From positions 1 through 24,316 of IMG/VR virus record IMGVR_UViG_3300042569_000270: a stretch of DNA of 24,316 nt, one strand, 5' to 3'. Shown in pieces: positions 1,415 through 22,159 of the stretch. The notes below the pieces were generated by a model. It had not been told where the DNA came from. It searched no databases and worked only from the letters and a program-made list of their open reading frames with translations. Each line of letters begins with the position of its first letter. Position 1 is the stretch's first letter. The position numbers and the translations under genes were made by a program. The stretch comes from a virus.

Positions 1415-1611
1415 AGGTAATAGATAAGATAGATGCACAGCCTGAAGCAGTGAAGTACTCTAAGCACTCATGCGTTCAGCTGTACAAAATACGGGTCAAG
1501 TACGATGGTCCACAGCCTAGGGAGTGTTTTTGTGCTTCAGTTAGGCGGAAAGTATGGTACAAGGACTTTATGGTATGGTATGAAAAGACTCTTAGACAAG
1601 TACATCAATAG
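1393..1611 (+). CDS. conserved hypothetical phage protein
   Basis: Starting at ATG 1393, a protein of 72 residues (MFEQTDIEVIDKIDAQPEAV...). I chose this ATG rather than the upstream in-frame ATG at 1306 because the upstream part lies inside the DUF1360-like gene and reads as out-of-frame sequence. The C-terminal half carries RECFCASVRRKVWYKDF and then a WYEKTL helix; a CxC followed by a basic/aromatic segment is recurrent in small hypothetical proteins of Bacteroidota phages. No catalytic motif is recognised. It overlaps the sigma-like gene by 32 nt. Confidence 0.55.
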   Translation: MFEQTDIEVIDKIDAQPEAVKYSKHSCVQLYKIRVKYDGPQPRECFCASVRRKVWYKDFMVWYEKTLRQVHQ

Positions 1612-2125
1612 TAATTACCATGAGGTAAGAGCTTACACGCTGTACTTTCTCACTAAGATGGGGAGTAAGATAGAGGCAGATACCGTAATTAACAATAGTT
1701 ACCTGCATGTGCTGACCATTAATGAGGATGCCAATAGTGAAGACCAGGTAAAAAGTTACCTTCTCAACACAATCAAGTATCAAATCCTATGGAACACATC
1801 GCTAAGCCATAGAGATGATAGGGTCACATCCATGGAGTATGAGCCCAGTGAGCAGGAGGATGACGAGCAGGACCTGCAAGCTAAGCTACTTGAGGATAAG
1901 ATATACAGCACTCACAAAGGGCTGATAGAGATCTATAGAGCAGGGATAAGTGACAATGTGCACAGGATAGTTTTTGAGGCGTATATCGATAAAGGTTACA
2001 CCACAGCTCGAGGGATGGCTAAGTACTTCGGGATACCGGTTACTTCAGCTCATTACCTGATAACTGAAATTAAACAAAATCTTAGAAAATTACAATATAG
2101 GTATGAGACTATCTCAAATAATTAG
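1580..2125 (+). CDS. diverged RNA polymerase sigma-factor-like protein
   Basis: From ATG 1580 the protein has 181 residues, typical of ECF-size sigma factors. Residues ~18-75 (YTLYFLTKMGSKIEADTVIN and on to VKSYLLNTIKYQILWNTS) read like sigma region 2: a helix, an acidic 'ADTVINNSYLHVL' segment and the 'yL.nti.y.il' helix that follows in ECF factors. An acidic linker (EPSEQEDDEQD) separates this from a C-terminal helix-turn-helix (TTARGMAKYFGIPVTSAHYL, then ITEIKQNLRKL), matching region 4, which contacts the -35 element. I infer that it redirects host RNA polymerase to phage late promoters. It overlaps the first copy of a conserved late motif at 2072-2102. The upstream TTG/ATG frames lie inside the previous gene and are unlikely starts. 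Confidence 0.65.
   Translation: MKRLLDKYINSNYHEVRAYTLYFLTKMGSKIEADTVINNSYLHVLTINEDANSEDQVKSYLLNTIKYQILWNTSLSHRDDRVTSMEYEPSEQEDDEQDLQAKLLEDKIYSTHKGLIEIYRAGISDNVHRIVFEAYIDKGYTTARGMAKYFGIPVTSAHYLITEIKQNLRKLQYRYETISNN
2072..2102 (+). promoter_or_regulatory. putative phage late promoter, copy 1 (packaging operon)
   Basis: AAACA at 2072-2076, 17 bases, then AATATAGGT at 2094-2102, followed immediately by ATG 2103. It lies inside the last codons of the sigma-like gene. Both half-sites and the 17-nt spacing equal those at 4596 and 11637. It would drive the operon for the small membrane protein, terminase small subunit and terminase large subunit. No Bacteroidota -7 box lies here. Confidence 0.65.
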
Positions 2126-2267
2126 CATACTAGCTACATTTTGTGCCTTGACCGGTGCGTTCTTTCTTATTAGAAATAACTACTTTTATGGTAGTAGAGC
2201 CTTTGGTATTTGGGTAGTACTTTATTATTCATGGCTATTTTTAGAACAATATGAGCAAGAAAATTAA
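2103..2267 (+). CDS. 54-residue membrane protein
   Basis: A short frame starting directly after the AATATAGGT motif and ending at TAA 2265-2267, 17 nt inside the next gene. Residues ~5-24 (QIISILATFCALTGAFFLI) and ~34-47 (FGIWVVLYYSWLFL) form two hydrophobic helices separated by a RNNYFYGSR loop; the C-terminus is acidic. As first gene of the packaging operon it might be a membrane-acting late protein, but no family is recognised. The motif right at the start codon supports the start choice and its reality. Confidence 0.55.
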   Translation: MRLSQIISILATFCALTGAFFLIRNNYFYGSRAFGIWVVLYYSWLFLEQYEQEN

Positions 2268-2451
2268 AAGCGAGTACATGGGGCAGTATGTTACTGTGTA
2301 CCTAAACGGGAGAGAGGTATCTTTCAACATTTCTGAAGAGACAGCAAACGAAGCTGATTTCTGGACTAACAACGGATTAGGACATATCTTTGAGGAAGTA
2401 GTAGTTAAAAAAATTAAAACAGATGCCAACACCCCGCCCGCAGGAGAGTAA
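2251..2451 (+). CDS. small hypothetical protein of the packaging operon
   Basis: A 66-residue protein (MSKKIKSEYMGQYVTVYLNG...) that looks beta-rich in its first half, with a KSEYMGQYVTVYLNGREVSF hairpin, then an acidic segment and a Lys-rich 'VVVKKIKTD' stretch. It overlaps the previous gene by 17 nt and the next by 29 nt. The sequence is reminiscent of small head- or packaging-associated proteins, but I do not recognise the family and assign no function. Confidence 0.5.
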   Translation: MSKKIKSEYMGQYVTVYLNGREVSFNISEETANEADFWTNNGLGHIFEEVVVKKIKTDANTPPAGE

Positions 2452-2884
2452 AGACGAGTACCTGGAGCGATGCATGGGTGATGAGGAAACTCTAGCCAAG
2501 TATCCGGAGAATGAACAGCGGTATGCTGTATGCAATTCTCTTTGGGATGCTGAAGCATTGAGCAGGTATCGTAGAGCATTTGCAGACTCTTACAATGACT
2601 ATCCTAAACAAGCCACTGAGAATGCTAAGATAGCAATCAGATGGGCTGAGGATAATGGATGGGGTGATTGTGGTACTGCAGTAGGTAAAGCTCGTGCTAG
2701 TCAGTTAGCTAATGGGGAAAATATCACACGTGATACCATTGCTCGAATGGCAGGCTTTGAACGTCACCGGCAGAACTCACAGAAAGAGCTTGGAGATGGA
2801 TGCGGTAGATTGATGTGGTTAGCCTGGGGAGGTGATGAGGGTATTGAATGGGCACAACGTAAACTTAAAGAAATAGATAAATGA
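2423..2884 (+). CDS. conserved phage protein with two modules often found near head protease/XkdF genes
   Basis: A 153-residue protein made of two recognisable modules. Residues 1-41 (PTPRPQESKDEYLERCMGD ... RYAVCNSLW) resemble the short Cys-containing leader seen in front of head-maturation proteins. Residues ~58-153 (YPKQATENAKIAIRWAEDNG, GDCGTAVGKARASQLANGE, TIARMAGFERHRQNSQ, DGCGRLMWLAWGGDEGI) match a conserved block that I recall mostly as a domain inside capsid-protease or XkdF-like polypeptides. Here it stands alone and is located 12 kb away from the XkdF-like gene. Four cysteines are spaced through it. Function unknown; probably linked to head assembly or packaging. It overlaps the terminase small subunit by 4 nt (ATGA). 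Confidence 0.6.
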   Translation: MPTPRPQESKDEYLERCMGDEETLAKYPENEQRYAVCNSLWDAEALSRYRRAFADSYNDYPKQATENAKIAIRWAEDNGWGDCGTAVGKARASQLANGENITRDTIARMAGFERHRQNSQKELGDGCGRLMWLAWGGDEGIEWAQRKLKEIDK

Positions 2885-3315
2885 GACCAAAACATATAGA
2901 AACACCTGAGGCAATGTGGGATCTATTTGAGGCCTATAAGAGATGGTGCAAAGAAAATCCTAGATATAGCTATTCCCTATCTAACAAGACAGGTGAAGCT
3001 ACAGCAGTGCCATTAGAGAGACCACTTACTCAAGTGGGTTTTAGGACTTTTGCTGCAGATAGAGGGCAGACTGTCAATGATTATTTCGCTAACACTGGGG
3101 GTAGATATTCCGACTATGCTACAATCTGCTCACGCATAGAGGAAGCAATCCGCATGGACCAAATCGAAGGGGGCATGGTGGGGCAGTACAATGCATCGAT
3201 CACCCAACGACTAAACAACCTAACCGAGAGAGTTGACACTACTACCAATGGAGAGACCATCAATGACATCCAGGTGAAGATCATACTACCAACAGATGAG
3301 TCCTCAACAGATTGA
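2881..3315 (+). CDS. terS: terminase small subunit
   Basis: A 144-residue protein of the terminase small subunit (DNA-packaging gp3-like) type common in Bacteroidota phages. Recognisable features: MWDLFEAYKRWCKENPRY near the start, VPLERPLTQVGFRTFAADRG at ~43-62 (the helix-turn-helix-like region), YATICSRIEEAIRMDQIEGG at ~99-118 and YNASITQRLNNLTER at ~123-137. The last is the oligomerisation helix followed by a variable tail. It recognises the packaging site and loads the large subunit onto concatemeric DNA. The large subunit follows after one small gene, as expected. Confidence 0.88.
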   Translation: MRPKHIETPEAMWDLFEAYKRWCKENPRYSYSLSNKTGEATAVPLERPLTQVGFRTFAADRGQTVNDYFANTGGRYSDYATICSRIEEAIRMDQIEGGMVGQYNASITQRLNNLTERVDTTTNGETINDIQVKIILPTDESSTD

Positions 3316-3484
3316 GTTCATGTGTAGACTTGTAGAGGACTATATCTACAGAAAGAAAGGGAAGCAGGTAAAGATAGATAGAAGGGAAGTGATGAGTGAT
3401 GGGAGGCAACTCGCTATGTTAATGAATGCCTATCAGATAGTACATGGAGATAAAGAGCACAGTAATTTTTCAAAAGAACCATGA
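3296..3484 (+). CDS. small hypothetical protein between the terminase subunits
   Basis: A 62-residue basic protein (MSPQQIEFMCRLVEDYIYRK..., then VKIDRREVMSDGRQLAMLMNAYQIV). It overlaps the small subunit by 20 nt and the large subunit by 41 nt. Composition is balanced and helical, and the frame is not a reading artefact of terL except in the last 13 codons. No family recognised; the position suggests a packaging accessory protein, but that is inference. Confidence 0.5.
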   Translation: MSPQQIEFMCRLVEDYIYRKKGKQVKIDRREVMSDGRQLAMLMNAYQIVHGDKEHSNFSKEP

Positions 3485-4595
3485 GGCCCTTAATGATAAG
3501 GCTATAAGGTTTGTCATTAATGAGGGAGGGTCAAGGTCCTCTAAGACCTATAGCTTATGTCAGCTAATTATAGTCTACTGCCTACAAAATAAAGGTAAGG
3601 TAGTTAGTATCATTAGAAAGACGTTCCCTGCTCTAAGGGCAACGGTCATGCGTGACTTCATTGAGATACTCAAGGACCTCAACCTGTATAGCCTGGAGGC
3701 ACACAACAAGAGTGAGCACATCTACACCTTCCCTAATGGGTCCATCGTGGAGTTCTTCTCAGTGGATGATGAGCAAAAGATAAGGGGTAGGAAAAGAGAC
3801 ATAGCTTGGTGTAACGAAGCCAATGAGCTATACTTCGATGACTTCACTCAGCTCAACATGCGTACCGAGTACAAGTTAATCTTTGACTACAACCCCAGTG
3901 AGTCAAGCTCATGGCTGTATGAGTTACCACAGGAGGAAAGCATCCTAATCAAGTCAACGTATAAAGACAACCCATTTTTACCTAAGAGCATTAGATCCCA
4001 AATCGAGGACCTCAAGAGAACGGATGAGGCACTCTACCAAATCTATGCACTGGGTGAAAAGGCAATCAGTAAGAGTAACATCTACAGCAACTGGAGCTTC
4101 ATACCTCATCGGCCTGCTAGATTTGTCAACTACGTCTATGGTCTTGACTTCGGATACAATCACCCCACTGCACTCATGCGAGTCTATTGGTGTGATGCTG
4201 ACATCTACATTGAGCCAGTCATCTATGAGAGCTATCTCACTACACCGATGCTGATAGACAAGATGCAAGGTGCCAACATTGAAAAGACAGTGACCATAGT
4301 AGCCGACTATGCAAGACCCGAAATCATAGCCGAACTAAACAACGCAGGGTACGATGTGCAGAACGCAAACAAGGTAGTCAAGAAAGGGATAGATAACATC
4401 AAGACCTTCGGGGTGTTCTGCCAGGATGACAAGGCCCTCAAGAAAGAGTATGAGAATTACAAGTGGAAAAAAGTAGGAGACATGATCACTGACGAACCAG
4501 TCAAGATGTTTGATGATGCCATGGATGCAATCAGGTATGCGACCACTCACATCAGACAGGAGTACTATACGGATGACAGCTACCTGGCGTTTTAG
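3444..4595 (+). CDS. terL: terminase large subunit (PBSX-type)
   Basis: A 383-residue packaging motor. The Walker A loop is GGSRSSKT at residues 28-35; the Walker B region is DIAWCNEAN at 119-127 with catalytic E125. The RNase H-like nuclease domain shows LDFGYNHPTAL with D235, VADYARPE with D288 and MFDDAMDAIRYA with D357/D358/D361. Both ATPase and nuclease are complete. It pumps DNA into proheads and cuts the concatemer. The length fits the short PBSX/Bacteroidota branch (about 380-430 residues). It ends at 4595 and the second late-promoter motif begins one base later. Confidence 0.95.
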   Translation: MEIKSTVIFQKNHEALNDKAIRFVINEGGSRSSKTYSLCQLIIVYCLQNKGKVVSIIRKTFPALRATVMRDFIEILKDLNLYSLEAHNKSEHIYTFPNGSIVEFFSVDDEQKIRGRKRDIAWCNEANELYFDDFTQLNMRTEYKLIFDYNPSESSSWLYELPQEESILIKSTYKDNPFLPKSIRSQIEDLKRTDEALYQIYALGEKAISKSNIYSNWSFIPHRPARFVNYVYGLDFGYNHPTALMRVYWCDADIYIEPVIYESYLTTPMLIDKMQGANIEKTVTIVADYARPEIIAELNNAGYDVQNANKVVKKGIDNIKTFGVFCQDDKALKKEYENYKWKKVGDMITDEPVKMFDDAMDAIRYATTHIRQEYYTDDSYLAF

Positions 4596-4626
4596 AAACA
4601 CATTAACTGCTTAGAATAATATAGGT
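4596..4626 (+). promoter_or_regulatory. putative phage late promoter, copy 2 (tail operon)
   Basis: AAACA at 4596-4600, a 17-nt spacer, AATATAGGT at 4618-4626, then ATG 4627. This fills exactly the gap between terL and the next gene. The 21 bases ending at the ATG are identical to those before 11668. It would start the unit covering both large tail proteins and the tape measure. Confidence 0.68.
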
Positions 4627-6093
4627 ATGGCAATGACATTAAAGGCTGCACCTCAGCGACTCACTCCGGCATACAACCCAGTCAAGTATATCTATGACTC
4701 GACCAACAAAAACCTAGGAGGCTTCAAGTATATCTTTGAGGTATACGAGTCAGGCACAGCTAATCAGATAGCTGAGTACAGGGTGCTACCTGTTTACTCT
4801 ACGGGGTACGGTGAGATTGACCTAACTAAGTTACTGCAGTCTAAGGTAAGCTTTGACCTAGAGCCAAACAATACCACAGTATACGATGCAACCAACAGCC
4901 ATTACAAGTATGACCTTAAGGTAGGTGAGGAGTATCTTACTACGACCTCATTTACATCTGCCATGACTCAGTACACTACTGCTCCCTATGTTGGTAGAGT
5001 TCGTCTTAATGGGACCAATACATTTGTGGTAGGTGATCAGATAGTCTTAACTCAGACAGGACTAGGTGGGGTGAATGCCAACCTTAATGGATTGTACACT
5101 GTGCTTGTGGCAACTCCTACCTATATTGTGATTAACTTCCTTTGGTCAGGTATCACCAACGCTAACAAGGATGTTGAGATAACCTATGCCGATGGTAGGA
5201 GGACCACTACCTACAACATCATCAATGATTTGAATAACTATGTATTCAATGGTGCACTGCCTTGGACTGAGTGGCCGTCATGGGATGAGACTAACTATGA
5301 CTTGAGTGGTAACACTGACAAGTTCCTAACATCCATACCTGCTACCAACTTCTACGCTACACTATCTCAAGACTTGTGGATGAATGCAGTGTATGGCTTC
5401 ATACCTGGAGGGACTCACAAGATAGTATTCACCAATGATGCTGGTGAGATATTTGAGAAATCAGTAGGTGCCACTGACCACATCACAGGTAACGCAGTAG
5501 GCCCTAACAACCTTGGAACACTTACTCCTGTATCAGGACCATTGCCATTGATTAAGCCTACCACTCAATACTATGAGTACTACTATGAGCACAATGGCTC
5601 ACAGGTTACACAAGCCTATCGAGTGAACATAGATCGTAGAACACAAAGCAAAGAGTACAGCATTATATTCTTAGACCGTTATGGTTCATGGGGTAGCTTT
5701 GCGTTCACCGGTAGAGCATACGAAACGGGAAGCGTACAGCGTGAGCAGTACAACATGGATGTGCAAGGTAAGATAGCAAGCAGTGAGTGGACTTATGACT
5801 TAACTGAAAGAGGATATACCAACAGCTATGTAACGGTAGAGAATACCATTGACCTCAACACTAACTGGATGACTGAGGACATGGCTACCTATTTCACTGA
5901 GCTCATCAGTTCACCATACACTTACTTCAAGGTAAGCAACTACGATGAGAACTGTGACATACCGGAAAGCACTGAGTACATCAGCTGTAATGTAGTGACA
6001 TCCAACTACGAGTACTACAAGCAACGAAACAAAAATCTAATCAAGCAAAGCATTACTATCAAGCTTGCTAACAACGACATGGTCAATGGTTAG
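4627..6093 (+). CDS. putative tail/virion protein
   Basis: A 488-residue protein rich in Tyr, Thr and Asn, predicted mostly beta. It begins TLKAAPQRLTPAYNPVKYIY and has VLPVYSTGYGEIDLTKLLQS near residue 57. Its end, NYDENCDIPESTEYISCNVV followed by EYYKQRNKNLIKQSITIKLA, is an ending I associate with large structural proteins of Bacteroidota siphoviruses. No enzyme motif is visible. It lies between terL and another large beta-rich protein upstream of the tape measure, so a distal-tail or baseplate role is likely, but this is inferred from position. The 3' end overlaps the next gene by 8 nt. Confidence 0.65.
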   Translation: MAMTLKAAPQRLTPAYNPVKYIYDSTNKNLGGFKYIFEVYESGTANQIAEYRVLPVYSTGYGEIDLTKLLQSKVSFDLEPNNTTVYDATNSHYKYDLKVGEEYLTTTSFTSAMTQYTTAPYVGRVRLNGTNTFVVGDQIVLTQTGLGGVNANLNGLYTVLVATPTYIVINFLWSGITNANKDVEITYADGRRTTTYNIINDLNNYVFNGALPWTEWPSWDETNYDLSGNTDKFLTSIPATNFYATLSQDLWMNAVYGFIPGGTHKIVFTNDAGEIFEKSVGATDHITGNAVGPNNLGTLTPVSGPLPLIKPTTQYYEYYYEHNGSQVTQAYRVNIDRRTQSKEYSIIFLDRYGSWGSFAFTGRAYETGSVQREQYNMDVQGKIASSEWTYDLTERGYTNSYVTVENTIDLNTNWMTEDMATYFTELISSPYTYFKVSNYDENCDIPESTEYISCNVVTSNYEYYKQRNKNLIKQSITIKLANNDMVNG

Positions 6094-8914: not shown

Positions 8915-8915
8915 C

Positions 8916-11195
8916 ATGAATGAAGTAGAAATACCATTAAAGCTCGGTGGCATTGCCGAAATAAAAGCAGAACTTAGAGACCTCAAAGGTCAAATAGCTA
9001 ATGCTGCGGATGCTGATACAATGACTGAATTAGCTCAAAGAGCAGGACAGTTAAAAGACCAATTAAAGGATGCCAATGAGCAGGTAGCTATCTTTACCAC
9101 AGGCTCAAAGTTTGAAGCTGTATCTAATAGCTTCGGTGCCATCAAGGGTGACTTAATGAGTCTTGACTTTGAGGGTGCATCTGAGAAGGCTAAGGTGTTT
9201 GCTAAGAACATGGCAAGCATTAAGCCTGATGATATCGGCAAGGCGTTTAAAGGATTGACAAGTACTATCGGTTCTATCGGTAAGGCATTCATGTCATTAG
9301 GTCAAACCTTACTAGCCAACCCTATATATTTAATTGCTGCGGTGATAGCTGGAGTCATTGCTGCTACGATTTACTTAGCCGATAAGTTAGGCTATCTTGA
9401 CCAGGTAACTGAGGCAGCAGGTATGGTGTTTGATGCCTTGATTGAAACACTCAAAGAACTTGGTGAAAGTATGGGCATAGCTGCTGCTCAAAGTGAGGAG
9501 TACATAGCTATGCAGGAGGCTAACACTAAAGCTAATGAAGAGGCAGAGAAAAGTACAGCAGGTGTTATTGAAGTAACCAATGAAGTAGGCACTGCATTCG
9601 AGTTAGCTAAGGAAGGGGTAATCTCAAAAGAGGAAGCACTTGCTACCTACAACTCAAAGCTAGGTGATACATTTGGTGCAGCAACTACATTGGCTGAAGC
9701 GGAAAAATTATATGTAGCTAAAACTGATGCATACATTGCAGCTACCATGGCAAGAGCTCGAGCTGAAGTCTTTGCTAAGAAAGCAGCGGAAGCAGATGCC
9801 AAGGCAATCATGGCTAAGAGTAAAGACCAAACCACAGCACTAGATAAGGTTACTACCTGGGTAGATAAGAATAAGACTCTAGCGTATGTTGTAGGTGCCA
9901 CTACCTTGGGTACAGGTCTAGCAGTAGTAGGTACTCTTGATGCCATGGATAAATCAGGTAAGAGCCTAGCCGATAAGCAAAAGATGAGAGTTGGAGAGGA
10001 GCAGAAAAGGCAAGGCAAGATATCCAATATGTATCAAGAGGAGGCAAAGAAGGCATTGAAGAATGCTATTGAATTAGAGAAATCTAATGACATAAATATC
10101 AAAGGTAATAAGGCAAAGACTGCAAGCAATAAAAAACAAAGCGACCAACGTATCAAGGATGCTGAGAAAGAGGCAGAGAAGCTACGTCAAATTGCTATTA
10201 AGGAAAATGAGGATAGAATCAAAAGAGAGGATGAGCAGTTTGACTTACTCAATAAGCTAACCCTTACACAACGTGAGCAGGATATCCTAGCATTGACTCA
10301 AGACTATGATAAAAAGTATGAGCTCGCTAATGGCAATGCTGAACTTGAGAAGCTACTAGCTGAACAGCAGAAAAAAGATATCGCAGAAATCAATAAGAAA
10401 TATGCTGACGAGGCAGAAAAGAAAGCAAAAGAGGAAGCAGATAAATTAGCAGCAGCTAAGAAAGCAGCAGATGATCTAATCTTCAACTTGAATGCTACCC
10501 AACAAGAGAAAGATATTCGAGCACTGGAGGAGCAACTTGAAGCAGATAGAAAAGTGTTAGGTGATAACGCAGCTGCACAGCTCCAGCTTACTGCAAAGTT
10601 TGAGGAGGATAAAAAAGCCATTGAGAATAAGTATGCACTTGAAAGGATAGAGAATGCTAAGAAAGAAAGAGATGCTAAGATAGCTTTAGCTGAAGATATA
10701 TTCAATGGAGTATCTGCAGTAGGTAGTGCATTGATCAAGGACCAAAAGAAACTAGAGAAATTTAACAAGGCGAATGCGTTGATTCAAATTGGTATTGATA
10801 CAGCCAAGGCAATATCTTCATTAGTTGCTGCGTCTCAAGCTAACCCATTCAACGGATTGACAGCAGGTGCTGCAGGTATTGCTCAGTTTGCTAGCGGTAT
10901 CATTCAGATAGTTACTAACATAGCCAAGGCTAAGCAGATATTAACATCAGGAGGTACGCCATCACCAGGTGGTGGAGGAGGTACAGCTGAAGCAACAGGT
11001 GGAAGCAATACCAATGTAGCACAGCAGGTACCGGCATCAGCTCAGTTATTTGGTGCAGCCAATAGCGGTAACGTAGTGAGTGCAGGAGGAGGTACATCTA
11101 ACAGTTCCATGACTGTCACAGCTGTAGTATCTGAGACACAAATAACCAACGTACAAAACAAGATAACTAAGATTAATAAAAACGCTGAATTATAA
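8916..11195 (+). CDS. tape measure protein
   Basis: A 759-residue, Ala/Lys/Glu-rich, largely helical protein. After an N-terminal coiled segment (ELRDLKGQIANAADADTMTE) there is a hydrophobic stretch at ~133-155 (NPIYLIAAVIAGVIAATIYL). Long charged coiled coils follow at ~380-590 with repeated 'QREQDI.AL..DYD' and 'QQEKDIRALEEQLE' units, then a second hydrophobic region at ~622-685 and a Gly/Ser/Thr low-complexity end. This is the standard profile of a siphovirus tape measure, which sets tail length and is ejected through the envelope. At the usual ~0.15 nm per residue the tail would be about 110 nm. No lytic transglycosylase motif was seen. Confidence 0.88.
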   Translation: MNEVEIPLKLGGIAEIKAELRDLKGQIANAADADTMTELAQRAGQLKDQLKDANEQVAIFTTGSKFEAVSNSFGAIKGDLMSLDFEGASEKAKVFAKNMASIKPDDIGKAFKGLTSTIGSIGKAFMSLGQTLLANPIYLIAAVIAGVIAATIYLADKLGYLDQVTEAAGMVFDALIETLKELGESMGIAAAQSEEYIAMQEANTKANEEAEKSTAGVIEVTNEVGTAFELAKEGVISKEEALATYNSKLGDTFGAATTLAEAEKLYVAKTDAYIAATMARARAEVFAKKAAEADAKAIMAKSKDQTTALDKVTTWVDKNKTLAYVVGATTLGTGLAVVGTLDAMDKSGKSLADKQKMRVGEEQKRQGKISNMYQEEAKKALKNAIELEKSNDINIKGNKAKTASNKKQSDQRIKDAEKEAEKLRQIAIKENEDRIKREDEQFDLLNKLTLTQREQDILALTQDYDKKYELANGNAELEKLLAEQQKKDIAEINKKYADEAEKKAKEEADKLAAAKKAADDLIFNLNATQQEKDIRALEEQLEADRKVLGDNAAAQLQLTAKFEEDKKAIENKYALERIENAKKERDAKIALAEDIFNGVSAVGSALIKDQKKLEKFNKANALIQIGIDTAKAISSLVAASQANPFNGLTAGAAGIAQFASGIIQIVTNIAKAKQILTSGGTPSPGGGGGTAEATGGSNTNVAQQVPASAQLFGAANSGNVVSAGGGTSNSSMTVTAVVSETQITNVQNKITKINKNAEL

Positions 11196-11638
11196 TGAAC
11201 TCACTACAAGCAATCACCAACCACATTGAGCAGTTCTACAACAATCACCTGCAGGTAAAGAAAGTAGGTAGCGACTTCAAGGAACAGCTATACAACTTCG
11301 CTACCCAGGATGAGAAGTATCCTATTGTTTTCATTGTGCCGGTAAGCGTTAACCCTACCGAGAATACCTCAGAGTTTAACTTTGACATCTACTGCTTTGA
11401 TATCATCCAAAAAGATAGGGCTAATATCATTACAATACTAAGCGATACACAGCAGATATTGAATGACCTATTTGTGTACTTTACTTACAGCAATGACTAC
11501 AGCTTTGATGTCATAGGACTGCCTAGCTTCCAGGCTATAAACAATGATCTACTTGACTACGCTGCAGGGTATGTTATGAACATCACTCTTACCGTCAATG
11601 ACTGGACTGATTGTGCTGTGCCTCTATCAGGGAACTAA
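11195..11638 (+). CDS. putative tail completion/terminator protein
   Basis: A 147-residue protein beginning MNSLQAITNHIEQFYNNHLQ, with EKYPIVFIVPVSVNPTENTS near residue 50, FNFDIYCFDIIQKDRANIIT at ~66-85, and the ending YVMNITLTVNDWTDCAVPL. This pattern recurs in structural proteins of Bacteroidota phages, where it is placed as a tail-completion or tail-terminator-like protein. The role is inferred from size, fold pattern and position right after the tape measure. It shares one base with the tape measure stop (TAATG) and ends where the third late-promoter motif begins. Confidence 0.55.
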   Translation: MNSLQAITNHIEQFYNNHLQVKKVGSDFKEQLYNFATQDEKYPIVFIVPVSVNPTENTSEFNFDIYCFDIIQKDRANIITILSDTQQILNDLFVYFTYSNDYSFDVIGLPSFQAINNDLLDYAAGYVMNITLTVNDWTDCAVPLSGN

Positions 11639-11667
11639 ACATTTCGGAGGCTTAGAATAATATAGGT
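11637..11667 (+). promoter_or_regulatory. putative phage late promoter, copy 3 (fibre operon)
   Basis: AAACA at 11637-11641 (its first bases overlap the preceding TAA), a 17-nt spacer, AATATAGGT at 11659-11667, then ATG 11668. The last 21 bases including the ATG match copy 2 exactly. It would drive the tail fibre and the genes after it. Confidence 0.68.
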
Positions 11668-12729
11668 ATGAGTGCACCAAATTGGTGGGGAGACTGGAGA
11701 CCTATCCTCACACCTCACACCGGAAACCTTCAACCTACTGACTTACTAGAATGTACTTCTATAGTGGGTGGCTTACCTGTTAACACAGCCATTACAGGTG
11801 CTCAGATAATAGCAGCTGCATCGGGTGGTAGTGGGTTGACTATAGGAACAACAGGTATCACTTCAGGTACTATTGGTAGGGTATTATTCCAAGGCACAGG
11901 CAATGTATTACAGCAGAGTGCTAACTTGTTTTGGGACAACACAAATAACAGACTAGGGATAGGGACAAGTAGTCCATCTTTTTCTTTGGATGTTAATGGT
12001 GGTTTAAGAACACTTGGTGTATCCCAACTAAGAGGTCCATCAAACAGTATATTAGGAAGTAATTTACAAACAACATCAGCTGCTCTTATTTTTAATAATA
12101 CATTCAATGGTGCTCTTGGTATAGGTAGTTATTCTAATTCAGGCGCAGAAATTCAAAGTGCCCAAAATGGTGGTGTATCAGTTGGAGGTATTTTAATTTT
12201 ACAAAGACAAGCTGGAAATACATTAATTGGCACAGCTACAGACGCAGGATTTAAGTTAGATGTGAATGGTACTGCTAGGGTGCAGGGTACAATGACTATA
12301 CCATCAACAGGTAATTTTGGTATTACTGTTTCAAGAACAGGAACATCAGGTATAGCTCAACAGATTTTTAATTCTTCAGCCACAACTTATTTAGGTGCAG
12401 ATAGTTCAGGTGGTGGCTTTTTATTTACAGGTGGATTGCCTTATGCTTCATTTTTTGGTAATGGTGCAAATAGGCCTACACAATTTGGTACAAATGGTGC
12501 AATAAGAATGACTATTTTTGCAGGTGGTAATGTGGCAATAGGTACTACAACTGATGTAGCTAGTGCAATTTTACAAGCAAGTTCAACAACTCAAGGCTTC
12601 CTACCTCCACGAATGACCAATGCACAGATGCTAGCAATAGCTGCACCTGCTGCAGGATTGGTAGTATATGACACAACTAACAACAAGCACTGCGGATACA
12701 ACGGTACTGCTTGGCAAAACTTCTACTAA
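11668..12729 (+). CDS. tail fibre / receptor-binding protein candidate
   Basis: A 353-residue Gly/Ser/Thr/Asn-rich fibre-like protein. It has two copies of a fibre repeat (RLGIGTSSPSFSLDVNGGLR at ~92-111 and TLIGTATDAGFKLDVNGTAR at ~188-207), a third partial copy (NVAIGTTTDVASAILQASST), and a conserved C-terminal tip starting GFLPPRMTNAQMLAIAAPA and ending NGTAWQNFY. Such repeats are typical of trimeric appendages in Bacteroidota phages. The N-terminus (APNWWGDWRP) is probably the virion anchor. The section between about 11,930 and 12,595 is visibly more A+T-rich than the ends, suggesting module exchange. A role in host adsorption is inferred. Confidence 0.75.
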   Translation: MSAPNWWGDWRPILTPHTGNLQPTDLLECTSIVGGLPVNTAITGAQIIAAASGGSGLTIGTTGITSGTIGRVLFQGTGNVLQQSANLFWDNTNNRLGIGTSSPSFSLDVNGGLRTLGVSQLRGPSNSILGSNLQTTSAALIFNNTFNGALGIGSYSNSGAEIQSAQNGGVSVGGILILQRQAGNTLIGTATDAGFKLDVNGTARVQGTMTIPSTGNFGITVSRTGTSGIAQQIFNSSATTYLGADSSGGGFLFTGGLPYASFFGNGANRPTQFGTNGAIRMTIFAGGNVAIGTTTDVASAILQASSTTQGFLPPRMTNAQMLAIAAPAAGLVVYDTTNNKHCGYNGTAWQNFY

Positions 12730-12977
12730 TGATACAGATAGAACCACTTAACATACCAACTAAAGGCACAGCATCTCAGATGTCAGTGCTTGTACTTAAC
12801 TTTGCTACCAATGCTACCACAGCTCAGACCTATTGGCAACTATATGATCAGGAGGGAACACCCCTATTGGATGGTAACTACACCATGACTGAGGAACAGT
12901 TCGCCACATGGGGTACTGACAATAATGTAGTTAATGAATATGTAGCAGATGCTATAGGAGTAACAATAATATCATGA
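12729..12977 (+). CDS. small virion-associated protein candidate
   Basis: From ATG 12729, which shares its A with the fibre stop (TAATG), the product has 82 residues. It is beta-rich: IEPLNIPTKGTASQMSVLVL, then TTAQTYWQLYDQEGTPLLDG and EEQFATWGTDNNVVNEYVAD. It resembles short proteins encoded next to fibres in Bacteroidota phages, which could be fibre partners or assembly factors; this is positional inference. An in-frame TTG/ATG six codons upstream lies in the fibre gene and is less likely. The TGA overlaps the next ATG (ATGA). Confidence 0.6.
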   Translation: MIQIEPLNIPTKGTASQMSVLVLNFATNATTAQTYWQLYDQEGTPLLDGNYTMTEEQFATWGTDNNVVNEYVADAIGVTIIS

Positions 12978-13096
12978 TAGAATTAGACGAAAAACAACTA
13001 GAAGAGATTAAAGCATACTTGGCTGAGCTACCAATGAAGTACGCCTTACCTCTATTGCAGTACTTAGAGAAATTAAAAGAAGAGCAGAATGGCTAG
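12974..13096 (+). CDS. 40-residue helical hypothetical protein
   Basis: A short frame with stop-start coupling on both sides: ATGA with the preceding gene and an 8-nt overlap with the next. The product is a charged amphipathic helix pair (DEKQLEEIKAYLAELPMKYA, then LPLLQYLEKLKEEQ). It could be a small assembly factor for the fibre or tail; no family recognised. Confidence 0.5.
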   Translation: MIELDEKQLEEIKAYLAELPMKYALPLLQYLEKLKEEQNG

Positions 13097-13559
13097 ATAC
13101 GCAAACACAGGTGAGTTCAATGTGCTATATCCTACCCGTAGGAAAATGGCTACTATACTCAAGAGAATAATTAGACAGGAAGTAGCAGATGGTGAGGGTA
13201 CACTTGTAGAAAGTGTGCGTATCAATGCCAAGGTAACAGGCTTCCAAAAACTAGAGATACAAATAGTAGCTATGTACTACTTTATATTTCTAAACAATGG
13301 GGTGCCACAAACTGCTAACGCCTATGGCCCCAATGGTGGGTCTATAGCTCCACGAGATTTCGTTGCACAATTTACTGATGCGTTAATGGCAGCAGGTCTT
13401 GTTGCTGAGATATATCGGCAGTATACTGAATGGATAACTAAAAAGTATCCTTTGGTACAAGCTGTTGAAGTGCTTGAGAAACAATATAAATTAGTGTATA
13501 CATTTGAGGCACTTGACCCTCCTGCAACTTTTACTCCTGGGTTCCCGTTAGATGTCTAA
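13089..13559 (+). CDS. putative structural protein
   Basis: A 156-residue protein. Features: basic N-terminal region (TRRKMATILKRIIRQEVADG), a strand-rich centre (GFQKLEIQIVAMYYFIFLNN), GGSIAPRDFVAQFTDAL at ~84-100, and a long C-terminal helix. The 'FLNNG ... APRDF' order is loosely like the HK97 gp10 tail-component group ('Y..FVE.G ... .RPF'), but the match is weak. It ends in a 12-nt tail-to-tail overlap with the minus-strand gene, so this operon and the minus-strand one converge here with no visible terminator hairpin between them. Confidence 0.55.
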   Translation: MARYANTGEFNVLYPTRRKMATILKRIIRQEVADGEGTLVESVRINAKVTGFQKLEIQIVAMYYFIFLNNGVPQTANAYGPNGGSIAPRDFVAQFTDALMAAGLVAEIYRQYTEWITKKYPLVQAVEVLEKQYKLVYTFEALDPPATFTPGFPLDV

Positions 13560-14288
13560 CTCTTTTTTCATACCCAGAACATTAAACACATAAACGAGTG
13601 GTAGGGCACCTATCTTATCACTCTTAGTTATGTCACCTTTTGATAGGCTATAGATCATTAGCTCCCATGACCACTTGGCACTCTGTTGTTCTTTCTCTAT
13701 TTCTTTGATTTCTTCAGGGTCAAGTTCTGCCTTTTCTTCATTGGTCAATGGCTCATCTGCTTCACCCATAAATAGGTTCTCATACTTTTTAAGGAAGTCA
13801 TCCCTAAACTTTAAGAACTCATGTATCAATCCATACACATCTGTGATGGGTAGGTCAAGGAACTTATCAGCCCTAATGGTGCAGTCAAAGTCATAAGGTT
13901 CCATTACCTCATCACCCCATTCATTCAGCTTAGTGTTCCGGTATAAGATAGCACATACATTAGCTAGGTTCTCTATATAGTTCTGACCAAAATAAAAGTC
14001 CAGGTCAATGTACTCATATAGGCATAGCTTGTTGAATGGCTTGAGCTTCAACCCAAGTAGCTCATGTTTATATCTTTTGGATGGTTCAGATTTACACCAC
14101 TTATTCTCTTTGATTAATTGCCGCATCTCATCAACATCGAGCTCTTCAATATCCTCAATTGGTAAGTCTGACAAGATAGAAAGTGCCTCACTATTGTAGT
14201 GATACGAACCCTGTGAGGCATCTATCTTATTAAACTCAATGAACTGCTCAACAGTTACATCACTCCACTGCTTCGGTAGGTGTATCAT
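13548..14288 (-). CDS. putative tail assembly chaperone-like protein (second of a related pair)
   Basis: A 246-residue acidic protein read right to left. It opens MIHLPKQWSDVTVEQFIEF, closely parallel to NREIPNQIDELTIEQFETI at the start of its upstream neighbour: both have a Pro, a spacer and [LV]T[VI]EQF. This suggests tandem paralogues. The rest is helical, with a Glu-rich stretch near 175-195 (NEEKAELDPEEIKEIEKEQQ). Acidic helical pairs are typical of tail assembly chaperones that wrap the tape measure, and no other candidate occurs in this window. It overlaps its partner by 29 nt in a different frame. The assignment is inferred. Confidence 0.5.
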   Translation of the reverse strand: MIHLPKQWSDVTVEQFIEFNKIDASQGSYHYNSEALSILSDLPIEDIEELDVDEMRQLIKENKWCKSEPSKRYKHELLGLKLKPFNKLCLYEYIDLDFYFGQNYIENLANVCAILYRNTKLNEWGDEVMEPYDFDCTIRADKFLDLPITDVYGLIHEFLKFRDDFLKKYENLFMGEADEPLTNEEKAELDPEEIKEIEKEQQSAKWSWELMIYSLSKGDITKSDKIGALPLVYVFNVLGMKKELDI

Positions 14289-14799
14289 TTCTTAATTGTT
14301 GGCCTATCTTTTGAGCTATGAACATGATATAAGGGATGGCAATGTTAGCATCTAGCTTCCGTAACAGCTTAGCCTTTTGTTTGATGTGAGCATCAGCATA
14401 GTGTTCGGTGGGTGTAAGGTCCTCACGTTTGAACATGACAGCTAACATCTCAGATATGTATCCTTTGTTCTTATGTAGTGCTACCTTCTCAATAATCTTT
14501 GTATCACGTACAGTTAACTTCATTTGAGCCTTATACAAGTAGCCTTCAATCTCAAGCTCCTCCACTACAGGAAAATCTTTTTGCTCCATTGTGTTGAAGC
14601 TTTTAACAATCTCTACAAAGTCAGCAACATCCGTATCCCAAAATTCATTCTCAGGTATCCCCAGGTAAGCGAATACTTTAAGGTGTTTGTCAATGGGGTC
14701 AAGGCTAGTATCATTGTTGATATCAGTAATAGTTTCAAACTGCTCAATGGTCAGCTCATCGATTTGGTTGGGAATCTCCCTGTTTAAGATAGTTATCAT
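14260..14799 (-). CDS. putative tail assembly chaperone-like protein (first of a related pair)
   Basis: A 179-residue acidic protein with the ELTIEQFETI motif near residue 14, a helical core including NEFWDTDVADFVEIVKSF and YKAQMKLTVRDTKIIEKVAL, and an ending KAKLLRKLDANIAIPYIMFI. It starts on the minus strand, back to back with the XkdF-like gene across a 43-bp gap. A Bacteroidota-like -7 box (TATATTTG) is readable on this strand at 14822-14815. A chaperone role is inferred from acidity, pairing and the absence of another candidate. It is unusual for tail genes to oppose the tape measure strand. Confidence 0.5.
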   Translation of the reverse strand: MITILNREIPNQIDELTIEQFETITDINNDTSLDPIDKHLKVFAYLGIPENEFWDTDVADFVEIVKSFNTMEQKDFPVVEELEIEGYLYKAQMKLTVRDTKIIEKVALHKNKGYISEMLAVMFKREDLTPTEHYADAHIKQKAKLLRKLDANIAIPYIMFIAQKIGQQLRNDTPTEAVE

Positions 14800-14811
14800 G
14801 TTTTAAAATTT

Positions 14812-14842
14812 GAACAAATATAGGAAATTTATAATATAGGTA
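14812..14842 (+). promoter_or_regulatory. putative phage late promoter, copy 4 (head operon)
   Basis: GAACA at 14812-14816, a 16-nt spacer, AATATAGGT at 14833-14841, one base, then ATG 14843. Because the gene on the left is divergent, the promoter of the head operon must lie in this 43-bp gap. This makes the copy the strongest argument that the motif is a promoter. TATAAT overlaps the motif start (14831-14836). A second AATATAGG at 14817-14824 lacks an upstream RAACA. Confidence 0.7.
14815..14822 (-). promoter_or_regulatory. possible host-type -7 box for the minus-strand operon
   Basis: TATATTTG on the minus strand fits the Bacteroidota TAnnTTTG element and lies 15 bp before the minus-strand ATG at 14799. 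A matching -33 TTTG at the usual ~19-nt spacing is not evident, so this is tentative. It overlaps the left half of late-promoter copy 4 on the other strand. Confidence 0.4.
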
Positions 14843-15823
14843 ATGGCAAAAGATAAACTACCAGTTTACAAAATTACTATTGACCCTGAGTACTCCGAGA
14901 ATGGTCAAGACTTAGGTATTGAGCAGATAGCATTCACAAGCACTCCAGCCATCAAAGTCATGGGTATGGCATTCAGTGCTCAGACAAAGCCTATGAGATT
15001 TAACGATGAGATAAAGTACCGTATCACTGCACCTGCTTTGATACCTATGGAGATCTATCGCTTTGATGAGGATACAGATGAGGAGTACTATGTTAAATTC
15101 ACTGCTGAAGAGATAGAGAAAATTCATGCTAAGTTCATGAAAGACATGTTGAATAAGGACCTATTCAACTTGGAACATGATACTGAAAAGACTGTACCTG
15201 CCTATGTACTTGAGGCATGGATAGTAGACACTCCAAAAGAGGACAAAGCTTACTCATCATTTGGTATTGAAGTACCGGAGGGTACACTTATGGTTACTGC
15301 CCAGGTAACTGATAAAGAGTACTATGCTGAACTTGTAGCTCAAGAGCAAATAGGCTTCAGTATAGAAGGGTACTTAGGCATGAAACTAAAAGAGCAAAAC
15401 AAATCCCAAATAAATACACAAATGAATGAGTTAATGTTGCCGGATGGCGAACACATCATCAACGAAAAAATCTACATCGTAAAAGATGGTAAAGTAGTTG
15501 AAGTAAAAGATGTTGAAAAAGTAGAGGCTTCTGAGGAAGTAGCCCTAGAGGAAACTGTTATCGAAGAGGAAGTAACAGAAATCCCTGCAGAGGAAGAGAC
15601 AATGGCGGTAGATCCTGTGCTTGACGCAGAAGCTATCTTAGCTATTGTTAAGCCTGCAATGGATGAGCAAATCAATGCCCTTGTAGCTATGATTGCTGAC
15701 CTTAAGAACCAACTTGAGGAAGTGATGAGCTCAGAGGTAGAAGAGGAAGTGATTGAAGAGGCTGTGGCTATGAGTGCACAGCATAGATTTTCTAGTGTAA
15801 ACAAATTCATAAATAACAAATAA
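14843..15823 (+). CDS. XkdF-like prohead protease fused to scaffold-like domain
   Basis: A 326-residue protein. Residues ~1-185 match XkdF-type head-maturation proteases: FNLEHDTEKTVPAYVLEAWI with likely catalytic H112, then DKAYSSFGIEVPEGTLMVTA and QEQIGFSIEGYLGMK with likely S173. The C-terminal part, from about residue 194 (MNELMLPDGEHIINEKIYIV), is a Glu/Val-rich segment with a predicted coiled coil (VKPAMDEQINALVAMIADLK), typical of a scaffold. The fused layout resembles protease-scaffold fusions that digest themselves after prohead assembly. An internal ATG at 15422 could give a separate scaffold. The major capsid gene follows 1 nt later, as expected. The late motif ends one base before the start. 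Confidence 0.82.
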   Translation: MAKDKLPVYKITIDPEYSENGQDLGIEQIAFTSTPAIKVMGMAFSAQTKPMRFNDEIKYRITAPALIPMEIYRFDEDTDEEYYVKFTAEEIEKIHAKFMKDMLNKDLFNLEHDTEKTVPAYVLEAWIVDTPKEDKAYSSFGIEVPEGTLMVTAQVTDKEYYAELVAQEQIGFSIEGYLGMKLKEQNKSQINTQMNELMLPDGEHIINEKIYIVKDGKVVEVKDVEKVEASEEVALEETVIEEEVTEIPAEEETMAVDPVLDAEAILAIVKPAMDEQINALVAMIADLKNQLEEVMSSEVEEEVIEEAVAMSAQHRFSSVNKFINNK

Positions 15824-15824
15824 A

Positions 15825-16760
15825 ATGCGTAAATTAAAATTCGACTTACAAGTTGACCCAACTGCTTTATTAGCAGCGAACCCAGAGGCATTCTATTCTC
15901 AAGCTTACTTGTCTGAGGATACTGCTGACAACTATCGTTCTTTACCAGGTGTAAAGTACAAAACTAAATTAGCGACTGTTACTTTCGGTAACATCTTGCA
16001 AGCATCTAGCTGTTCTTTCTCAGCTCCTAATGATGATTTGAACGCTAAAGAAATTGACGTATGTGCTCTTTCTGCAATGGCTCAAATTTGTCAGTTTGAC
16101 TTAGAGCAATCTTTCCTTTCTTTGCAAATGTCAAAAGGATCTAACGGAGATTTCTCTGTTGCATCTTTCATGTCATTCTACTGGGGTGAGATGGCTAACA
16201 AAATTAACGGAGATATCGAGTTAATCAGATGGCAAGGTGATACAACTGCTATTGCTAACCCTACATTAGCTTTATGTGATGGTTATGAGAAAAAATTAAC
16301 TGCAGGTTTAACTGACCCAACTGATACAGTTATCAACGGTGGTACAGGTGCAATTGCTAACTTCACTACATTGGAGACTAAATTAGCTGCAGCATTTGCT
16401 TTACTTCCTGCATCTATTGCTACACGTACAGCTGACCTACGTTTGTACATGCCAACTCAATTGGTTAACATCTACCGATTAGGAGTTGCTGCAGGTAACA
16501 CTAACGCTTACATTACTCAAGATTTGTCTTTGACTTTCTTAGGAGTTAAAATCGTAGTTTGTCCAGGTATGTCTAACAACACTTTTGTTTGGACATTGAA
16601 AGATAACCTTATCTATGCATTCGATGCTGAGGGTGACTCTTCTGACCTACGTGCAGTTAACTTAGCTGATACTGTAGCTGAGCCTTATATCCGTACACGT
16701 GCTAACATGAAAGTTGGTTTCGAATATGTGAATGGTTCTGACATCGTTTTCTATCAATAA
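15825..16760 (+). CDS. major capsid protein
   Basis: A 311-residue protein directly after the protease/scaffold, which is the normal place for the major capsid gene. The sequence (MRKLKFDLQVDPTALLAANP, YWGEMANKINGDIELIRWQG, TADLRLYMPTQLVNIYRLGV, LTFLGVKIVVCPGMSNN, a C-terminal 'R..M..GF.YVNGSDIVFY') fits an HK97-like capsid pattern: long N-terminal region, then an 'E-loop/P-domain'-like alternation with a strand-rich end. Codon choice shifts to TTA/TTG Leu, TCT Ser, GCT/GCA Ala and CGT Arg, unlike flanking genes, consistent with very high expression. The fold is inferred, not matched to a database. Confidence 0.82.
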   Translation: MRKLKFDLQVDPTALLAANPEAFYSQAYLSEDTADNYRSLPGVKYKTKLATVTFGNILQASSCSFSAPNDDLNAKEIDVCALSAMAQICQFDLEQSFLSLQMSKGSNGDFSVASFMSFYWGEMANKINGDIELIRWQGDTTAIANPTLALCDGYEKKLTAGLTDPTDTVINGGTGAIANFTTLETKLAAAFALLPASIATRTADLRLYMPTQLVNIYRLGVAAGNTNAYITQDLSLTFLGVKIVVCPGMSNNTFVWTLKDNLIYAFDAEGDSSDLRAVNLADTVAEPYIRTRANMKVGFEYVNGSDIVFYQ

Positions 16761-16767
16761 TAATCAT

Positions 16768-16793
16768 GAGCCCTCTACCAAGGGGGCTCTTTA
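16768..16793 (+). terminator. terminator-like hairpin after the capsid gene
   Basis: GAGCCCTCT pairs with AGGGGGCTC (9 bp with one T-G wobble) around an ACCA loop, followed by a short T run (TTT then AATACTTT). The weak T tract suggests partial termination, so that some transcripts continue into the next gene and the capsid mRNA is more abundant. Confidence 0.7.
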
Positions 16794-16806
16794 ATACTTT
16801 AATATC

Positions 16807-17349
16807 ATGGCTTGTCAAGCATTAGAAGCAATCGTAAAATCATGCGACAACAACAGTGGTGGTATCTATGGTATCTGGATTAACCAACAAGATGAGATCG
16901 CATCTATCACACCAACCGACCCATCAGCGGGTTCAGGATGGGAGATAACAGGTATCACTCTTGCAGGTACTCCTCCAGTACTATTTGAAAACTACTACGT
17001 TCGTCGTAACACATCTAACTTTACTGAGGACAGTACTATTGACCTAGTTAATGGTAGCTCATTTGTCACTCAAACAATTAACTTAATGTTCCACCGAAGA
17101 GATAAAGATAAGTCTCGTGCTATCAAAATCTTAGGAGCAGGACAGCAATACTTAACAGCTATCGTATTAGATGCTAATGGTAAGTATTGGTACTTCCCTT
17201 ACTTGCAGGTTTCTGCTACAGGTGAAGGTTCAGGAACAGCTCGAGCTGATGGTTCTAAATATTCAGTTACTTTGGTAGCTGAAAATGAGTACCTAGCTTA
17301 TGAGGTAGACATGCTACCTGCTGCATTAGCTGCAATCGGAGTACTATAA
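16807..17349 (+). CDS. major tail (tube) protein candidate
   Basis: A 180-residue protein (MACQALEAIVKSCDNNSGGIYGIWI ...) with alternating strands and a conserved-looking FHRRDKDKSRAIKILGAGQQ stretch at ~99-118, followed by a Gly/Ala loop and NEYLAYEVDMLPAAL at the end. Size, beta-rich pattern, location after the major capsid gene and flanking by two terminator hairpins all suit an abundant tube protein. It shares the codon preference of the capsid gene in part. A different abundant virion protein (decoration or minor head) is the alternative. The start is preceded by AATATC directly before ATG but has no RAACA partner. Confidence 0.65.
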   Translation: MACQALEAIVKSCDNNSGGIYGIWINQQDEIASITPTDPSAGSGWEITGITLAGTPPVLFENYYVRRNTSNFTEDSTIDLVNGSSFVTQTINLMFHRRDKDKSRAIKILGAGQQYLTAIVLDANGKYWYFPYLQVSATGEGSGTARADGSKYSVTLVAENEYLAYEVDMLPAALAAIGVL

Positions 17350-17372
17350 GTTCTTTATTTCTCTACATAGCG

Positions 17373-17403
17373 AAAGGGCCTACCGTAATGGTGGGCCTTT
17401 TTT
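17373..17403 (+). terminator. Rho-independent terminator
   Basis: AAAGGGCCTACC pairs with GGTGGGCCTTTT (about 12 bp including G-T pairs) around a GTAAT loop and runs into a T tract ending TTTTTT. It closes the head/tube unit; the fifth late-promoter motif begins 3 nt downstream. Confidence 0.85.
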
Positions 17404-17405
17404 GT

Positions 17406-17436
17406 GAACATTTGTAAAGTCTAATTTAATATAGGT
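17406..17436 (+). promoter_or_regulatory. putative phage late promoter, copy 5 (portal-lysis operon)
   Basis: GAACA at 17406-17410, a 17-nt spacer, AATATAGGT at 17428-17436, then a GTG start at 17437. It lies just after a strong terminator, so transcription of the downstream portal and lysis genes needs a new promoter here. The upstream half reads GAACATTTG. Confidence 0.7.
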
Positions 17437-17787
17437 GTGATATACTTAGATCAAGGTGTTATTAATCAATTCGTGTTAACTCTTAGTGAGGTAACTACGG
17501 TTAGTACACCACACTATTTGTTTGTGTTCACCAATGAAATGAATACTACTAGCACACCACAGCTATTTACATCTGCTGATACAAGTGCATACCCTGAAAG
17601 ATACAACCTGTTTACTCTTGATGAGCCAACGGATATATCACTACTTAAAGGGCAGTACACGTATGAAGTATATGAGAGCTCAACACCATTCGTTCTACCT
17701 CTTTCAATAGCACAAACTACAGGCGTAGTAATTGAGGAAGGTAGAATGGTAGTAAGTGGTCCAGTAGGTAACTCAATATACGATTAA
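17437..17787 (+). CDS. putative structural protein
   Basis: A 116-residue beta-rich protein with GTG start: MIYLDQGVINQFVLTLSEVT, then STPHYLFVFTNEMNTTSTPQ, DISLLKGQYTYEVYESSTPF, EEGRMVVSGPVGNSIYD. I recall similar short proteins encoded beside portal or capsid genes in Bacteroidota phages, where they are left without function. The strand pattern could suit a head-surface or neck component. The GTG is supported by the position of the AATATAGGT motif right before it and by the absence of another start for many codons. One base separates it from the portal gene. Confidence 0.6.
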   Translation: MIYLDQGVINQFVLTLSEVTTVSTPHYLFVFTNEMNTTSTPQLFTSADTSAYPERYNLFTLDEPTDISLLKGQYTYEVYESSTPFVLPLSIAQTTGVVIEEGRMVVSGPVGNSIYD

Positions 17788-22118: not shown

Positions 22119-22136
22119 ATGCAAAATTGTTTGCAT
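22119..22136. promoter_or_regulatory. inverted repeat overlapping the -33 region (operator candidate)
   Basis: ATGCAAA at 22119-22125 and TTTGCAT at 22130-22136 are perfect inverted arms separated by ATTG. The right arm contains the TTTG of the promoter at 22130. A repressor dimer bound here would block the promoter. Confidence 0.6.
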
Positions 22137-22159
22137 ATATGAAACTATTTGTATCTTTG
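22130..22159 (+). promoter_or_regulatory. Bacteroidota-type promoter of the early/replication operon
   Basis: TTTG at 22130-22133 and TATCTTTG at 22152-22159 are separated by 18 nt, matching the Bacteroidota primary sigma consensus (TTTG, about 19 nt, TAnnTTTG). Transcription should begin near 22165, about 22 nt before the ATG at 22188. The rest of the 170-nt gap after the exonuclease holds A+T-rich sequence, two copies of CCTGATTTT and no other feature. Confidence 0.8.

Follow-up and report, generated by a model that had tools for sequence, protein, structure and literature searches.

Five two-box sites and a sigma-like gene in a phage contig

The DNA analysed here, referred to as the window, is 24,316 bases long and makes up an entire virus contig (IMG/VR IMGVR_UViG_3300042569_000270, G+C 40.4%) with genes for packaging, tail, head, portal and lysis. 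At five places, all on the plus strand and 0–1 nucleotides (nt) ahead of a start codon, it carries the motif RAACA-N17(16)-AATATAGGT, and the first of these places lies within the 3' end of a gene for a protein resembling sigma factors of the extracytoplasmic function (ECF) type. A preliminary description made from the sequence alone had listed the five AATATAGGT positions, their RAACA boxes, spacers of 17, 17, 17, 16 and 17 nt and adjoining start codons, all of which we recovered as claimed.

1580–2125, plus strand: sigma-like gene, 181 amino acids, ECF-type two-domain layout in a predicted model; last gene ahead of the late region
2072–2102, plus strand: putative late promoter P1; RAACA 2072–2076, N17, AATATAGGT 2094–2102; inside the 3' end of the sigma-like gene; ATG 2103
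4596–4626, plus strand: putative late promoter P2; RAACA 4596–4600, N17, AATATAGGT 4618–4626; directly past the terminase stop; ATG 4627
11637–11667, plus strand: putative late promoter P3; RAACA 11637–11641, N17, AATATAGGT 11659–11667; ATG 11668
14812–14841, plus strand: putative late promoter P4; RAACA 14812–14816, N16, AATATAGGT 14833–14841; divergent gap; ATG 14843
17406–17436, plus strand: putative late promoter P5; RAACA 17406–17410, N17, AATATAGGT 17428–17436; GTG 17437

Searching both strands of the window for AATATAGGT returned six matches against 0.50 expected, a number reached in none of 100 shuffles. With up to one mismatch, AATATAGGT alone occurred at chance level (14 versus 10.4), so that it is the pair of boxes that counts. 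A two-box matrix built from 79 sites of relatives ranked the five sites on top of both window strands with scores of 20.9–31.1, while the next independent site scored 0.7 and the highest score among 40 first-order Markov sequences as long as the window, of which one strand was searched, was 12.8. Matrix sites within the window were restricted to late-operon starts, the outcome that the preliminary description had named as support for its proposal, as opposed to many matches inside genes at chance frequency. The sixth AATATAGGT match (5119–5127, minus strand) lies inside a tail gene with no RAACA at the right distance and was taken as chance.

Conservation of the motif in relatives

Unless described as unique, loci are counted here and below with overlaps within one contig included. 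After orientation of 243 loci (three pieces of the window among them), their plus strands contained AATATAGGT 383 times and their minus strands 17 times. Unique AACA-Nx-AATATAGGT sites in relatives, counted for x = 8–29, showed a spacer of 17 nt in 138 cases, 16 nt in 21 and 18 nt in four; the minor spacings (12 sites at 12 nt, five at 11 nt, one each at 13 and 26 nt) are in most cases attributed to an additional AACA within the spacer, and one site was on the reverse strand. Among 45 near-complete records, AACA-N14-20-AATATARGT was matched in 35, and 143 of the 144 matches (the motif or its AATATAAGT form) fell on one strand per record, compared with four matches of a reversed-pattern control over the same records. 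Seventeen records held five copies on the main strand, nine held four, four held three, five held two and ten none; in G016, counted with five, two copies near opposite contig ends may be the same site. Eight of the ten records without a match bear the RAACA/AATATA frame with a different tail (AATATATAT, AATATAGTA/GTT), and the last three motif letters vary between clades.

A bipartite motif of fixed spacing thus stands upstream of the late operons, conserved in relatives, confined to a single strand and kept even at a longer distance from the start codon (see below), and on these grounds the five sites are best read as a phage-specific class of late promoters, as had been proposed from the window sequence, with "late" resting on gene content.

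Distance to the start codon

At all five window sites the putative -10 box, AATATA, ends 3–4 nt ahead of the start codon. This geometry is widespread: among 226 unique sites, a start codon stood at distance 0 of the motif in 174, namely 149 ATG and 25 GTG, and the gap between AATATA and the first ATG amounted to 3 nt in 195 unique sites, 4 nt in 15, 5 nt in 23, 14 nt in 23, and 6, 9, 10 or 17–22 nt in 11 together. Nineteen further unique sites had a 1-nt gap, the 12 displayed being the coding element past the sigma gene described below, and 20 had no ATG in range, the 12 displayed all having GTG at 3 nt. Thirteen of the 56 tail orthologues listed (of 80 loci; L195, L199–L203, L226 and L228 among them) have 11 nt between the motif and the downstream ATG and still keep both boxes and their spacing, which argues for a promoter and not for a ribosome site.

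If the start codon is contained in the RNA, a box 3–4 nt away from it places the RNA start within about 3 nt of the box, and the late mRNAs are predicted to be leaderless or nearly so. For comparison, probable promoters of Flavobacterium johnsoniae were taken at 4–5 nt from the -7 box, and 87% of its predicted transcripts have leaders of more than 10 nt (PMC6847099), the latter in contrast to our prediction.

A candidate reader of the motif

The sigma-like open reading frame (ORF) 1580–2125, which the preliminary description had not mentioned, stops 23 bases past the AATATAGGT of P1. The ORF list places its start at 1505; several relatives have stops in the 1505 extension, and the start at 1580 is kept in all aligned sequences. 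Two alignments were assembled, A1 of 27 chosen sequences and A3 of 24 chosen sequences without L339 and L337, whose assigned coordinates contained a stop. The window protein matched six NCBIfam models, every one of them for sigma factors (E 6.3e-4 to 0.067, each below cut-off), and sigma models also make up 11 of the 20 families listed over 24 members. With 22 ECF-sigma-like proteins, gathered by means of TIGR02985 and PF04542 in genomes of one phylum, the profile matched collinearly at a score of 28.0 over 154 columns, whereas 100 column shuffles reached at most 18.7 and the reversed profile 18.5.

The predicted model consists of helices 2–83, a linker and helices 95–180. Its N-terminal half (residues 2–84) superimposes on 5uxx with Z 7.9 and a root-mean-square deviation (rmsd) of 3.1, and its C-terminal half (residues 103–181) on 3mzy with Z 8.4 and rmsd 2.4. 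When the model from the wider alignment was compared with the PDB using Foldseek, all 50 listed of 175 matches (E up to 10) were sigma subunits, for some of which the matched chain is presumably the sigma subunit. The best match at E 2.3e-3, chain C of 9n9q, which we take to be the sigma of an RNA-guided transcription complex, aligned with Z 8.3 over 158 residues at rmsd 14.0 and indicates likeness of fold only. A second structural list contained at least three non-sigma entries among the 50 rows displayed (DesR, a PhyR and SP_1288). The likeness to sigma factors is thus seen at the level of fold: the predicted model, and it alone, displays the ECF layout, in which regions 2 and 4 are present, regions 1.1 and 3 are absent and the length is about 160–200 amino acids. 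With ECF sigma factors (TIGR02937, TIGR02985) the protein shares this two-domain layout and weak matches across most of its length, while it differs in staying far below the curated cut-offs and in being encoded in a phage early region. As its sequence does not reach these cut-offs, we name it sigma-like and not a family member. From position and modelled fold, the product of 1580–2125 is likely the reader of the motif.

Gene and motif are closely linked in relatives: of 187 sigma-bearing loci, 183 have AACA-N17-AATATA at most 90 nt from the end of the sigma gene, 153 of them within its 3' end and 30 at 50–62 nt past it. In the latter arrangement, found in L117, L118, L125, L140 and others, the element lies in a coding frame. 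Nine unique forms of it from the clades with K or R at sigma residue 67 have identical AAC, AAT and ATA codons amid silent variation in the codons around them, which suggests a promoter preserved within a gene. On the plus strand of L244, a part of relative G001 that spans the early region, the matrix yielded P1–P3 only, and the next independent site (7.4) is not an early one.

Sigma residue 67 was further compared with the base following AATATA; in the 1300 nt downstream of the terminase, the first AACA-N17-AATATA served as the site. In all 140 loci the two agreed: each of the 104 loci with Y has G, and each of the 36 with K or R has A or T. Limited to sites right after the terminase stop, 110 of 211 terminase loci were comparable (74 G with Y, 36 A or T with K or R), while in 54 the sigma residue was unreadable and 47 lacked a site at that place. 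Too few independent changes lie on the tree for this covariation to carry significance, and the co-change of residue and base is suggestive only.

Host-type promoters and the composite site at P4

The early genes of these phages are preceded by promoters of the host type, TTTG/TAnnTTTG, as known for the primary sigma factor of Bacteroidota (PMC6847099); unlike these, none of the five late sites has a TAnnTTTG -7 box on its own strand.

22130–22159, plus strand: putative host-type early promoter TTTG-N18-TATCTTTG ahead of early genes; first ATG 22188
14815–14822, minus strand: host-type -7 box TATATTTG, overlapping the RAACA side of P4 and facing genes 14260–14799 and 13548–14288

Eighteen of the 30 plus-strand host-type forms displayed (of 104 unique) are variants of TTTG-N18-TATCTTTG, and a further host-type promoter lies ahead of the ERF gene (L244:7335). 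That the early genes stand behind host-type promoters and that the sigma gene belongs to the early region follows from position and consensus only.

The preliminary description had noted the lack of a host-type box on the strand of the motif, which is true, but TATATTTG lies on the minus strand inside P4, the sole window promoter with a 16-nt spacer. Twelve of 13 unique 16-spaced sites start with AACAAATATA, which reads TATATTTG on the minus strand, compared with none of 150 unique 17-spaced sites. The first ATG follows TATATTTG by 12–17 nt in 46 of 46 unique forms, all of which had been selected for containing the box. TTG was absent 15–23 nt ahead of TATATTTG in the 25 forms displayed, where it was found at 24 nt only, and over the 15–24 nt range it was present in eight of the 46 forms; this scarcity renders the upstream half of a host-type promoter doubtful. 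P4 itself has no clear -33 box at the usual distance for the minus-strand box. Binding of one sigma factor at P4 may exclude that of the other, a possible switch for the minus-strand genes 13548–14799.

Interpretation and alternatives

Taken together, we consider it highly probable that the five sites are late promoters read by the host RNA polymerase core with the phage-made ECF-like sigma factor from 1580–2125. Early in infection, the host primary sigma would start the early genes, of which the sigma-like gene would be the last, at TTTG/TAnnTTTG promoters. The phage sigma would then steer the polymerase to RAACA as -35 and (T/C)AATATA as -10 box, separated by 17 (or 16) bp, and thereby switch on the packaging, tail, head and portal/lysis operons. 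Since the sigma-like gene is the last one ahead of P1, an early-to-late relay would follow naturally. RNA synthesis would set in at the start codon or no more than about 3 nt from it and give leaderless or nearly leaderless late mRNAs, which would be workable where translation is independent of Shine-Dalgarno sites. We infer from the above the pairing of this sigma factor with the motif, when the late genes are expressed, where their RNAs begin and to which phylum the host belongs; gene order, strand, spacing and conservation of the motif are directly seen.

A host sigma factor assisted by a phage activator, with RAACA as the activator site, would be an unlikely substitute for the phage sigma. 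Candidate activators exist, as the helix-turn-helix (HTH) protein of 23198–23422 and the DnaA-C-like protein of 23419–23871 are both HTH-type and both encoded in the early region, and activator-dependent promoters often lack a good -35 box. However, AATATA does not match the TAnnTTTG that the same phages carry ahead of early genes, the spacing of 16–17 nt is that of one sigma touching both boxes, and the motif is located at the end of the sigma-like gene in nearly all sigma-bearing loci. Considerably less probable is an element of translation or mRNA, in which AAUAUAGGU by the start codon would serve as ribosome site or as target of a phage translation regulator. Most motif copies do adjoin a start codon, but the subgroup with the motif 11 nt upstream, the partner box at fixed distance and the final three letters differing among clades all speak against it. 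Moreover, G in place of A at -3 lowered the expression of an F. johnsoniae reporter by 70% (PMC6847099), which makes the fixed G at -3 of the motif the opposite of what favoured translation there, and Bacteroidetes seem not to depend on Shine-Dalgarno pairing (PMC3155529). Promoters of a single-subunit phage RNA polymerase, finally, are brought to mind by TATAGG near the expected RNA start and by the one-strand distribution; with no polymerase among the early proteins scanned (window and L244, some small ORFs left out), we give this explanation almost no credence. To our knowledge, a second box at 17 nt is not typical of such promoters either. As readings of the five sites, a ribosome site, a single-subunit polymerase promoter and chance repeats were rejected on the grounds set out above.

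Several observations weigh against a phage sigma factor as reader of the motif. Neither Pfam nor PHROGs gave a sigma match for ORF 1580–2125, and a profile search of PDB sequences found no sigma; TIGR02937 reached 14.7 bits against a curated cut-off of 42.9, and nine of the 20 NCBIfam families listed are not sigma, each occurring in one member. The first AlphaFold model, from 27 close sequences, gave mixed matches including TFIIB and cyclins, model confidence is moderate (pLDDT 77.9 and 77.7, pTM 0.70 and 0.39), and a structural Z of 8 has no decisive value for helical proteins. The distant relatives L242 and L243 contain a relative of the sigma yet no clear motif copy. On the terminase tree, residue 67 and the promoter base change twice, together, with one independent pair on the starred branches, and the in-frame element downstream of the sigma gene in the K/R clades has retained G (nine unique forms, 13 loci), which, if it is a promoter, breaks the rule relating residue 67 to the base. 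Lastly, phages phiEco32 and 7-11 start their RNA at a distance of 6–9 nt from the promoter element (PMC8948821). With this ordinary geometry the first RNA base would coincide with the start codon or lie beyond it, so that either transcription must begin unusually near the -10 box or the picture is incomplete.

The general kind of a phage sigma with bipartite late promoters is known. Phage 7-11 encodes the sigma SaPh711_gp47, which contains region 4, and has bipartite late promoters GTAAtg-16-aCTA (PMC8948821). The present system, as judged by sequence and model, would share with it the phage sigma with region 4, bipartite late-gene promoters, early promoters for the host sigma and the host core polymerase, and differs in its promoter consensus and in its proposed RNA start; 7-11 is moreover a Salmonella phage of about 90 kb. 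phiEco32 gp36 is likewise a phage sigma for middle and late genes, whose tAATGTAtA core resembles TAATATA (PMC4331800, PMC8948821), but its promoters are single-element and its sigma is described as having no region 4 (PMC8948821), in contrast to the second box and the region-4-like domain of the model found here. What would be new is the unrecognised sigma and the unusual promoter-to-start-codon geometry; among the titles and abstract starts listed from the open-licence PubMed Central literature, neither motif nor sigma was found.

We see about an even chance for a broader picture in which a common group of uncultured small phages, probably of Bacteroidota, make most of their structural proteins from leaderless mRNAs, with an unrecognised sigma family, promoters fused to start codons (RNA start 0–3 nt before AUG) and a sigma and promoter that co-changed between clades. 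The sites offer a concrete and testable candidate sigma/promoter pair for phages that probably infect Bacteroidota, whose promoters are strongly unlike those of Escherichia coli, point to a sigma family that Pfam and PHROGs overlook, and make leaderless late translation testable in a group without Shine-Dalgarno sites; in addition, the few sites per genome would flag late operons in unannotated viral contigs.

Host affiliation and surrounding genes

Megablast of the window matched no phage record. The portal shares 25% identity with Nonlabens phages and the terminase 32–36% with the matches listed, many of them in Bacteroidota phages. Together with the host-type promoters, these matches indicate that the host probably belongs to the Bacteroidota. 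No cultured relative of the sigma-like protein emerged from tblastn against 50,697 phage records at E 0.1, and a profile search of genome contigs with the sigma alignment found no relative that could point to a host. The same type of scan with terminases returned one 29.6 kb contig in a metagenome-assembled genome from a pond, and we regard this contig as a free phage that was binned with it. The near-complete relatives measure 27–33 kb, and the P5-to-P1 distance in G001 suggests that about 3.7 kb of early region is absent from the window, if the contigs are circularly permuted; in the absent stretch, L244 encodes a primase-like protein, an ERF protein and others. The remaining features of the window are as follows.

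from 2103, plus strand: packaging genes (gp3-like packaging protein, large terminase) behind P1
from 4627, plus strand: tail genes behind P2; tape-measure-like protein 8916–11195
11668–13559, plus strand: unit behind P3
from 14843, plus strand: head genes behind P4
17372–17404, plus strand: intrinsic-terminator-like hairpin just ahead of P5; 17366–17408 with a minimum free energy of -22 kcal/mol, z -5.24, T run
from GTG 17437, plus strand: portal, holin and amidase genes behind P5

The division into packaging, tail, head and portal/lysis units given in the preliminary description broadly agrees with these genes, except that "fibre" for the unit at 11668 was not borne out; the placement of one copy just past a terminator (P5) and of another in a divergent gap (P4) was likewise found. 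The minus-strand genes 13548–14288 and 14260–14799, for which Pfam and PHROGs gave no match, oppose the late direction and are sandwiched between the P3 and P4 units. The HTH protein of 23198–23422 and the DnaA C-terminal-like protein of 23419–23871 are candidate regulators or replication initiators. A second terminator-like hairpin (16772–16807) precedes gene 16807 with no late motif after it, and this gene must therefore rely on read-through or an unseen start.

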